A stretch of DNA of 64,000 nucleotides from NCBI GenBank assembly GCA_902626585.1, contig CACOGA010000001.1:1-64000 (forward strand), read 5' to 3'. Source of the stretch: an uncultured Bacteroidota bacterium (GTDB lineage Bacteria > Bacteroidota > Bacteroidia > Flavobacteriales > Flavobacteriaceae). Every line of letters begins with the position of its first letter. Within the stretch, counting starts at the first letter, position 1. Position numbers and translations under genes: made by a program. The notes beneath the pieces were generated by a model. That model had not been told where the DNA came from. It did not search any database and saw nothing but the letters and a program-made list of their open reading frames with translations. Shown in pieces: positions 14,872 to 27,450 of the stretch.

Positions 14872-15477
14872 TTATTTAGAATATAATTCTACTATATATT
14901 GTTCGTTAATATTTTCAGGTATTTGGATTCTTTCTGGAACTGATACATATGTTCCCTGCATAGTTTCATCATTCCACGTAATCCATTCGTAAACTGATGA
15001 TGAGTTTTTCAAACAGTTTTCTATCGATTCGATAGATTTTGATTTTTCTCTTACCGCGATTACATCACCAGCTTTCAAGCTGTAAGATGGTATATTTACA
15101 ATTTCTCCATTCACTGTAATATGTCTGTGTGATACAAGCTGTCTAGCACCTCTTCTTGAATTAGAAAGCCCCATTCTAAAAACTACATTATCCAATCTAG
15201 ACTCACATAACTGTAGTAATACTTCACCAGTAATACCCTTTGATGCAGTGGCCTTTTTAAATAAGTTTCTAAATTGTCTTTCTAAAATACCATAAGTGTA
15301 TTTTGCTTTCTGTTTTTCCATTAATTGAACAGCATATTCAGATTTCTTAGATCTTCTTTTATTGTTTCCGTGCTGTCCAGGAGGATAATTTCTTTTTTCA
15401 AAAGACTTATCATCACCGAAAATTGGTTCACCAAATTTCCTAGCGATTTTAGTTTTTGGACCAGTATATCTTGCCAT
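14872..15477 (-). CDS. rpsD: 30S ribosomal protein S4
   Basis: S4 (201 residues) is a primary 16S rRNA-binding protein. It has the N-terminal [18 protein letters not shown] segment, PPGQHG, and the S4 RNA-binding domain with [24 protein letters not shown] (from about residue 90) and [17 protein letters not shown]. The N-terminal zinc-binding cysteines of some S4 proteins are absent, so it is the C-minus type. A 77-nt gap separates it from rpsK, the second-largest gap in the superoperon. Confidence 0.98.
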
Positions 15478-15554
15478 TTTTTAAAATTTTTAAGAGTGAT
15501 TATGAATTAAGGTCAATCCTTCGATAATCAATACCTCTTTGGTTATACTTATAA
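15478..15554 (-). other. 77-nt intergenic gap between rpsK and rpsD
   Basis: Most junctions in this operon are 2-30 nt, so this gap stands out. On the transcript it contains a purine-rich core (CAAAGAGGTATTGATTATCG, then AAGGATTGACC) and no ATG. It could hold an S4 autoregulatory site or a processing signal; I see no strong hairpin and cannot decide. Confidence 0.3.
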
Positions 15555-20838: not shown

Positions 20839-21666
20839 TTAATTTTCTTTATTATTTTTTTCACCTTCATCTGTTTCAGGAGTTTCCTCTACATCAGCTT
20901 TAGCCTCAGGTGTTTCTTCTGCAACAGCCTCAGGAGTTTCATCTACATCAGCTTCAGCTTCAGGAGTTTCCTCTGCAACGGCCTCAGCCTCAGGAGTTTC
21001 TTCTGCAACAGCCTCAGGAGTTTCTTCTGCAACGGCCTCAGCCTCAGGAGTTTCCTCTGCAACAGTTTCGTTAACTGGGGGTTTATTCTCTGCTTTTGGT
21101 CTCTCATTAGCTTCGCTTTTTTTCATGAAGGGTAAACCTAATTCACTTAATAGCTGCATAGCTTCAGTATCAGTATTTGCACTTGTCACAAAAGTTATGT
21201 CCATTCCTGAAATCTTATTGATCTTATCAATATTAATTTCAGGAAAAATAATTTGCTCAGTAACACCTAAGTTGTAGTTACCTCTTCCATCAAATCCAGT
21301 ACTTTTAACTCCGTTAAAATCTCTAACTCTGGGAAGAGCAGTTGTTACAAATCTGTCAAGAAACTCATACATTCTTTCACCTCTTAAAGTTACCTTCACT
21401 CCAACTGGCATTCCTTTTCTAAGCTTAAACGACGCAACGTCTTTTTTTGACATCGTTGCAATAGCTTTTTGACCTGAAATATCAGTAACTTCATTCAAAG
21501 CGTGATCGATAAGCTTTTTGTCATTAACAGCAGCACCAACTCCTTTCGATATAACAATCTTCTGAAGCTTTGGCACCTGCATAACATTGTCATAACTAAA
21601 TTCTTTTAACAACCTAGAGACAATATTACTCTTATATTCCTTTTTTAACCTTGGTATATAACTCAT
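20839..21666 (-). CDS. rplE: 50S ribosomal protein L5 with a 95-residue acidic tail
   Basis: Residues 1-180 are a normal L5 (5S rRNA and P-tRNA contact): [56 protein letters not shown]. The family usually stops near residue 180-185. Here residues 181-275 form an extension of Glu, Thr, Pro and Ala, with repeats of [10 protein letters not shown] and EETPEAVA (202-265) and a charged end, GEKNNKEN. The tail probably protrudes from the 50S central protuberance; its role is unknown. Frame and stop are intact and rpsN follows in order. Confidence 0.96.
20872..21063 (-). repeat. Imperfect tandem repeat encoding EETPEA units in rplE
   Basis: The DNA for L5 residues 202-265 is built of 24-30-nt units encoding [18 protein letters not shown] and relatives ([14 protein letters not shown]). 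All unit lengths are multiples of three. The repeats are less uniform than those in rplQ but have a similar acidic Pro/Ala composition. Confidence 0.9.
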
Positions 21667-25768: not shown

Positions 25769-26398
25769 TTATTTACTTAAATTTTCATTTATACTTAATA
25801 AAGAGCTCTCTGAGATAATAAGTTCTTTAGCATTTAATATTTTATAAGTGCTTATTTCTGAACTAGTTACAACCTCAGAACCCTTAAAATTTCGCGATGA
25901 CAAATATACATTATTATTTGGTGCACCAAATACAATAAGGGATTTTTTGTCTTCGACATTTAAGGCCTTTAAAACATCAATAAACATCTTTGTTTTTGGA
26001 GCTTTAAAGTCAAAATCTTCAATAACTTTGATAGCCTTATCCTTAGCTTTTAATGTTAGTGCAGATTTTCTTGCTAATTTTTTTAGTTTTTTATTGAGTT
26101 TAACCTCATAATCTCTTGGTCTCGGACCAAATATTCTTCCTCCACCTCTGAATATACCAGATTTTATACTACCAGCACGGGCTGTTCCTGTACCTTTCTG
26201 TCTTTTAATCTTTCTTGTACTTCCTTTAATATCTGCTCTTTCTTTTGCCTTGTGAGTACCTTGCCTTTGGTTAGCCAGATATTGTTTTACATCTAGATAT
26301 AATGCATGCTCATTAGGCTCAACAGAAAAAATTTCCTTAGGAAGAGTTACTTCTCTACCAGTTTCTTTACCTTTTGAATTTAATACCGCTAATTTCAT
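25769..26398 (-). CDS. rplD: 50S ribosomal protein L4
   Basis: L4 (209 residues) reaches into the exit tunnel and, in E. coli, autoregulates the S10 operon. The tunnel loop GSTRKIKRQKGTGTARAGSI, then RGGGRIFGPRPRDYEVKLNK, is present, and the N-terminal VKQYLANQRQGTHKAKERAD is typical. Its ATG overlaps the rplC stop by one base (TAATG). Whether it regulates its own operon here is unknown. Confidence 0.98.
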   Translation of the reverse strand: MKLAVLNSKGKETGREVTLPKEIFSVEPNEHALYLDVKQYLANQRQGTHKAKERADIKGSTRKIKRQKGTGTARAGSIKSGIFRGGGRIFGPRPRDYEVKLNKKLKKLARKSALTLKAKDKAIKVIEDFDFKAPKTKMFIDVLKALNVEDKKSLIVFGAPNNNVYLSSRNFKGSEVVTSSEISTYKILNAKELIISESSLLSINENLSK

Positions 26399-27015
26399 TA
26401 CTTCTGTATTATTACATAAGAGTTTTTATGACCTGGAACACATCCTTTAACAAGTAAAAGATTTTTCTCAGGCATAACCTTTAAAACTCTTAAATTCATA
26501 ACTTTAACTTTCTCTCCGCCCATTCTACCTGCCATTTTCATTCCTTTGAAAACCCGTGCAGGATATGATGCTGCACCGATAGAACCTGGGGCTCTTAATC
26601 GGTTGTGTTGCCCGTGTGTTGCTTGACCGACTCCAGCAAAGCCATGTCTTTTCACAACACCCTGAAATCCTTTTCCTTTTGAAATCCCTGAAACATCAAC
26701 AAATTCTCCCTCCTCAAAATGATCTACACCTACAGTGTCTCCCAAGTTCAGATCCTGATCAAAACCTTGAAATTCTACCACTTTTATTTTTGCAACTGTC
26801 CCAGCTTTTTTAGCATGACCTTTAGCTGCTTTGGTAGTACTTTTCTCTGTCTTGTCATCGAAACCTAATTGAACAGCTTTGTAGCCATCAACTTCTTCAG
26901 TTCTGACTTGGGTAACAATACAAGGACCGGCTTCAATGACAGTACACGGAACATTTTTTCCGTTTTCATCGAAAATACTGGTCATTCCTACTTTTTTTCC
27001 TATTAACCCAGACAT
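26398..27015 (-). CDS. rplC: 50S ribosomal protein L3
   Basis: L3 (205 residues) reaches close to the peptidyl-transferase centre. Signatures are [19 protein letters not shown] and [31 protein letters not shown], including the Gln that is methylated by PrmB in other bacteria. Upstream is the unusually long 129-nt gap to rpsJ with a possible small ORF. Confidence 0.98.
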
Positions 27016-27034
27016 AATTTTTATTTTTTCTTTT

Positions 27035-27115
27035 TTACTCTAAAAAATTAGGGTCAAAATAATTTAACCCTAAATTATTTTTCTCCATTTTTCCTTCGCG
27101 AAACGCTCCGGACAT
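27035..27115 (-). CDS. Possible 26-codon ORF between rpsJ and rplC
   Basis: The minus strand reads ATG at 27115 through TAA at 27035: [20 protein letters not shown], then DPNFLE. The start lies 29 nt after the rpsJ stop and the stop 19 nt before the rplC ATG, fitting the tight spacing of the operon. The first eight codons are GC-richer than surrounding spacer DNA (TCC GGA GCG TTT CGC GAA GGA), unlike the A/T-rich gaps elsewhere. I know no named family for it. It could be a real small protein, a leader peptide controlling L3-L4-L23 expression, or a chance ORF over an RNA structure. Confidence 0.4.
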
Positions 27116-27144
27116 GTTAAACCAGAATTAACTGGCAGGTAATA

Positions 27145-27450
27145 TTATACCTTAATTTCTACTTCAACTCCACTCGGCAACTCTAACTTCATTAATGCAT
27201 CAATTGTTTTCGAAGAGGTACTGTAAATATCCAATAATCTCTTGTAAGAACTCAACTGAAATTGCTCTCTTGACTTCTTATTCACATGAGGTGATCTCAA
27301 AACAGTAAAAAGTTTTTTATGAGTTGGTAATGGAATTGGTCCAGTTACCACAGCACCTGTACTTTTAACTGTTTTTACAATCTTTTCAGCGGAATTATCC
27401 ACTAAACTATGATCATAAGATTTTAATTTTATTCTAATTTTTTGACTCAT
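27145..27450 (-). CDS. rpsJ: 30S ribosomal protein S10
   Basis: S10 (101 residues) is a 30S head protein that also binds NusB in antitermination. [40 protein letters not shown] and [20 protein letters not shown] identify it. It follows fusA by 10 nt; tuf, which sits here in many Proteobacteria, is absent, as is usual in Bacteroidota. Confidence 0.98.

Follow-up and report, generated by a model that had tools for sequence, protein, structure and literature searches.

The rpsJ-rplC junction of a ribosomal protein operon in an uncultured member of the Flavobacteriaceae raises the question of what is encoded in an intergenic gap far longer than its neighbours. The window, i.e. the whole 64,000-nt stretch of DNA that was analysed, carries on its minus strand the gene order rpsL-rpsG-fusA-rpsJ-rplC-rplD-rplW-rplB and onward. 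The rpsJ-rplC gap measures 129 nt (27016-27144, minus strand), whereas other junctions of the operon in the ORF table are 23 nt for rpsL-rpsG, 5 nt for rpsG-fusA, 10 nt for fusA-rpsJ and -1 to 11 nt from rplC to rplP. The first-pass annotation had correctly set this gap against most operon junctions of less than 30 nt. It had also placed in the gap an ATG-to-TAA frame of 26 codons, which is confirmed at 27115-27035, starting 29 nt beyond the end of rpsJ and ending 19 nt short of rplC. Two kinds of object were proposed there: a small protein or leader peptide, or an RNA element controlling L3-L4-L23 output, possibly the local counterpart of the E. coli S10 leader. On the same strand, rplE (uL5, 20839-21666) was observed to encode a protein of 275 aa with an acidic repeat tail, much longer than the 180 or so residues usual for uL5.

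The fold of the gap is stronger evidence than the presence of the ORF. Its free energy is -28.1 kcal/mol against a mean of -18.9 for shuffled sequences (z = -3.2), and none of the 200 shuffles equalled it. When the gap was shuffled 5000 times with its dinucleotides preserved, on the other hand, a frame of at least 26 codons still appeared in 121 cases, so that the ORF alone is weak evidence. Other features reported with the frame could be assigned to RNA structure. Its 'GC-richer first codons' are the P1 hairpin described below. The inverted repeat TTAGGGT/ACCCTAA is indeed found at 27048-27073, and it extends beyond what had been noted, forming a hairpin of some 10-11 bp with UUUUUU directly after it. 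No TAnnTTTG promoter-like site was detected between rpsJ and these structures in the window, where the element would therefore act inside a continuous transcript. The coordinates of the features are collected in Table 1.

Table 1. Features of the rpsJ-rplC region on the minus strand of the window, in the order of transcription
Feature	Coordinates	Strand	Basis or remark
rpsJ (uS10)	27145..27450	-	ORF and sequence; gene upstream of the element
Hairpin P0 (GCCAG UUAAUU CUGGU)	27121..27136	-	Sequence-variable, just upstream of the conserved AUG
Whole conserved RNA element (P1 and antiterminator/terminator)	27042..27119	-	Match of covariance model R1
P1 module: AUGUC - hairpin - GAAAAAUGG; putative binding site	27085..27115	-	Invariant columns, covariation
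26-codon frame of the first-pass annotation	27035..27115	-	Judged not a gene; 2-49 codons in relatives
P1 hairpin: UCC/GGA stem, internal loop GGA/GAA, GCG/CGC stem	27092..27112	-	Fold
Antiterminator hairpin AAAAUAAUUUA-GGGU-UAAAUUAUUUU, 11 bp, -4.6 kcal/mol	27056..27081	-	Fold and strand matching
Terminator-like hairpin UUAGGGUUAAA-UUAU-UUUGACCCUAA, -12.4 kcal/mol	27048..27073	-	Fold; overlaps the antiterminator
U-run UUUUUU after the terminator hairpin	27042..27047	-	Sequence
rplC (uL3)	26398..27015	-	ORF and sequence; first gene downstream of the element

The element is compact (about 78 nt). A covariance model, R1, was built from an alignment of 60 sequences (A1); in the window it scored 81.9 bits (E 1.1e-17) with a next best match of 18 bits, the window sequence being itself included in the model. 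Invariant A1 columns flank the P1 hairpin on both sides (AUGUC and GAAA.A.G) and this flank motif has a single match within the window. The pattern used for collection fixed AUGU[CT] and the A-rich flank, so the degree of motif invariance is overstated; the covariation in P1 and in the downstream hairpin is unaffected by it. Upstream of the conserved AUG, usually by 2-7 nt, a hairpin in the position of P0 was found in 83 of the 98 gaps that could accommodate one, compared with 12 of 40 shuffles. Downstream, the A-rich strand that follows P1 pairs with a U-rich strand located in the loop and upper 3' side of the terminator-like hairpin, an arrangement which gives in the window an antiterminator made of A-U pairs. 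Because the terminator hairpin overlaps this antiterminator, the two are mutually exclusive. The 3' end is U-rich in most relatives and some have a weak U-run (UUUU then AAU), in which the hairpin may be an inefficient terminator. The distance from the terminator to rplC varies from 18 to 132 nt across relatives, and transcription control thus fits better than masking of the start site.

The first-pass annotation had named covariation as a means to check the gap, and a covarying structure was found. In A1, 97.9% of the cells of P1 and the terminator are paired and two-sided changes occur in 11 of the 14 pairs. The number of cells with such double changes is 68 compared with 12.4 in shuffles (0/500 as high) and falls to 8-19 when the partners are slid by one column. 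The covarying column pairs of P1 are 8-30, 9-29, 10-28, 15-24 and 16-23; for the terminator hairpin, two-sided changes were seen in 8 of the 9 pairs counted. The two basal pairs of P1 (U-A and C-G) are constant although the pair above them varies, suggesting that recognition of the P1 base and its flanks depends on sequence. As to the antiterminator, its two strands match better within the same genome (15.1) than in shuffles between genomes (12.8 +/- 0.38; 0/1000 as high). These shuffle tests are inflated by shared ancestry, which the controls only partly remove. A safer argument is provided by the many separate types of antiterminator pairs, i.e. AAAAUAC/GUAUUUU, AAAACAAA/UUUGUUUU, CAAAAUAA/UUAUUUUG, AGAAAAG/UUUUUCU and AAACAU/AUGUUU.

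The distribution of the element was established on gaps drawn from 80 named loci, 30 loci of a one-per-genus family sample, congeners and 60 further stretches. The succession AUGUC-(10-18 nt)-GGAAAAAYGG and then a terminator-like hairpin was found in 127 rpsJ-rplC gaps of Flavobacteriaceae, 117 of them distinct. It is present in all genomes of the window's genus with a readable gap and, with one genome per genus, in 72 of the 87 readable gaps of the family. Its absence from the 15 others, including Flavobacterium, indicates that it is dispensable in some lineages. Searches with R1 gave one copy per matching family genome, in 24 sampled genomes for the order and 13 for the phylum. The genome-wide matches adjoin rplC wherever coordinates were compared, the collected elements all come from rpsJ-rplC gaps, and all solid matches lie within the window's family. 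Three matches outside the family (32-40 bits) were rejected as weak and as none precedes rplC: the clearest falls inside nusG, another is a short distance downstream of an ORF that has no relation to rplC, and the third is in a stretch without rplC, that genome's rplC being on another contig. The element is lacking in the rpsJ-rplC gaps of other families in the order; unrelated hairpins occur in some of these gaps. Diverged copies were sought by covariance-model search in 51 element-negative loci and none was found (best E 0.05); one locus filed as element-negative, L058, does have the element in its gap. Separately, one low-completeness genome (G112) has two rplC matches (C156 and C118) with 81% and 43% identity to the window uL3, probably through contamination.

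Gaps that lack the element often contain a different, unrelated hairpin (L027, L039, L151, L164, L175, L208, L212, L214), possibly a replacement attenuator or a processing hairpin. Flavobacterium species often have a TAnnTTTG promoter-like site in the gap (14 of 45 element-negative gaps), and 'PrplC' of F. hibernum has served as a functional promoter (PMC6847099). In four element-bearing gaps (L005, L028, L030, L162), a terminator-like hairpin follows rpsJ and is succeeded by a TAnnTTTG promoter-like site and then by the element. The element thus stays with rplC, downstream of the promoter-like site, as a leader of rplC and not as a tail of rpsJ.

The gap probably encodes a cis-acting RNA, namely a transcription attenuator resembling a ribosomal protein leader (r-leader) and feedback-controlled by a ribosomal protein (r-protein) encoded downstream. 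Features of r-leaders are found: a position upstream of r-protein genes, a conserved and covarying structure and, as judged by sequence, an expression platform, given that a terminator hairpin and U-run are combined with an exclusive antiterminator. Actual termination, the direction of control and the ligand are inferred. P1 and its flanks (AUGUC ... GAAAAAYGG) would form a sequence-specific binding module. In the ON state, the A-rich strand would pair with the U-rich strand, so that the antiterminator forms first and transcription continues. In the OFF state, the A-rich strand would be left free, the terminator would form and RNA polymerase would stop before rplC. A surplus of the downstream-encoded r-protein would bind P1 and its 3' A-rich flank, block the antiterminator and favour termination; once this protein is taken up by rRNA, the antiterminator would form and allow read-through into rplC. 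Such an attenuator would divide the operon into a str-rpsJ part and a part from rplC onward. The best guess for the controlling ligand is uL4, an analogy drawn purely from the E. coli S10 operon, which this protein controls.

A terminator-like hairpin with a U-run could also act constitutively, as a partial terminator that only keeps transcription of the rplC part below that of the str-rpsJ part; P1 would then have a structural or processing role and no ligand. The Flavobacteriales without P1 that often hold an unrelated hairpin in the gap (L212, L214, L208; L164, L175) would fit such an arrangement. It leaves unexplained, however, the near-invariant AUGUC/GAAAxAYG flanks and the conserved covarying antiterminator, and gives no account of why the element follows rplC when a promoter separates it from rpsJ. 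A constitutive terminator is for these reasons unlikely.

The same RNA might instead be governed by something other than a downstream r-protein: a small molecule, another translation factor or ribosomes initiating at the conserved AUG could serve as the sensor. Several observations are compatible with this: conservation extends from the flanks to the AUG and an A at -3, and a simple weighted scan of the P1 flanks against 16S and 23S loci returned no rRNA look-alike, the best matches being within the range of shuffled sequences. Furthermore, no residue of uL3, uL4 or uL23 segregates with the element beyond clade effects. All 74 element-bearing sequences have R88 and K135 in uL4, and column 88 (in the conserved GGGRxFGP loop) is T in most sequences of the Flavobacterium clade (15/29 element-negative) against R in 74/74 element-bearing ones. 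Both residues are changed mainly in that clade and kept in most other element-negative lineages; as a clue to the ligand they were consequently rejected as probably a clade signal. Against another sensor, the element is placed strictly ahead of an r-protein operon, which usually signals feedback by an r-protein (PMC7247131), and an AUG located between two hairpins is a poor start site. Such a sensor appears rather improbable. It is very doubtful that sensing is done by the conserved AUG itself, which has an A at -3 and a hairpin on each side. The AUG would then be a decoy start site, mostly lacking a useful reading frame, and its occupancy by 30S subunits or by ribosomes in initiation would set the choice between antiterminator and terminator. 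Were it nevertheless to function so, the large-subunit operon would read the free ribosome supply and not a single r-protein.

That the 26 codons are translated into a small protein or leader peptide, as suggested by the first-pass annotation, can be practically dismissed. The AUG is conserved and has an A at -3, which in Flavobacterium makes a favourable context for initiation (PMC6847099); the window and most close congeners keep the frame open. Yet start, frame and stop are not preserved together as a coding unit, and this holds within the genus too. From the shared AUG, the frame runs for 2 to 49 codons among the 117 distinct relatives and stops after two codons (AUG-UCx-stop) in 35 of them, including two genomes of the window's genus, since the 5' strand of P1 often reads UCC-UGA or UCC-UAA. 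The congeners L118 and L120 read MS and then a stop; other congeners keep the frame with different ends. P1 modules of 29, 30 and 31 nt put the downstream part in three frames, and the AUG sits in the narrow space that separates hairpins P0 and P1. Close congeners (L112, L113, L114, L117) show 0-1 change in the first 25 codons, third positions included, while the third positions of rplC diverge by 21-33% in the same genomes. It is therefore the nucleotides that are conserved and not the peptide, as expected for an RNA. Of the earlier interpretation, the peptide branch falls with these frame lengths and truncated congeners; the branch that proposed an RNA element controlling L3-L4-L23 output is well supported by covariation, the antiterminator/terminator pair of exclusive helices and the placement before rplC.

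The same evidence lends good support to the proposal that the attenuator-like RNA corresponds in function to the S10 leader of E. coli, in which attenuation is controlled by uL4 with NusA (PMC10931766). Both precede the uL3-uL4-uL23-uL2... genes, and the element, like the E. coli leader, seems to work through an attenuator hairpin with a U-run, located in the window at 27042-27073. Compared by description, they differ in that the E. coli leader lies before rpsJ, at the 5' end of the operon, whereas the element lies after rpsJ, is compact and has an explicit antiterminator. The S10 r-leader of Firmicutes/Clostridia (PMC7247131) serves the same gene group in another phylum; it is named for rpsJ and presumably located before it, and cmscan gave no similarity, provided that this family is in Rfam. 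In the 2020 r-leader survey (Eckert and Weinberg; PMC7247131), S4, S15 and S16 leaders are reported in Flavobacteria, L13 and S4 leaders in Bacteroidia, and an rplC-rplD leader in Archaeoglobi only; the element is not among the ribosomal leaders of that survey. Like the S4-Flavobacteria (RF03141), S15 and S16 leaders, it is a short structured RNA ahead of r-protein genes in the same bacterial group, but the genes differ and it has no cmscan match to Rfam models. The window itself contains an S4-Flavobacteria r-leader at 15498-15529 (minus strand, 49.5 bits), directly before rpsD (14872-15477).

A known Rfam family was rejected at both thresholds used: Rfam 15 at gathering score gave no match in the window gap or in 14 relatives, and nothing relevant at a relaxed E-value. 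An r-leader for the rplC-rplD-rplW-rplB block in Bacteroidota was found neither in Rfam nor in the open-licence literature. The GUCCY-hairpin (Weinberg 2010) occurs in Bacteroidetes and Proteobacteria and is outside Rfam according to the table of that study (PMC2864571). Its name suggests a GUCCY hairpin and the P1 base of the rplC element carries AUGUC[C/U], a likeness judged by name only. The best reading is that the element is an apparently new r-protein leader.

The small-ORF-like motif in the gap, being RNA, bears on the annotation of small proteins. Should the ligand be uL4, the element would represent another RNA shape recognised by the same protein. The genes rplC-rplD-rplW-rplB-... 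form the largest r-protein block of the cell, for which the element would be a small switch, and it spans a large and ecologically important family. With a leader placed after rpsJ, a fused str-S10 operon could be split into separately controlled halves.
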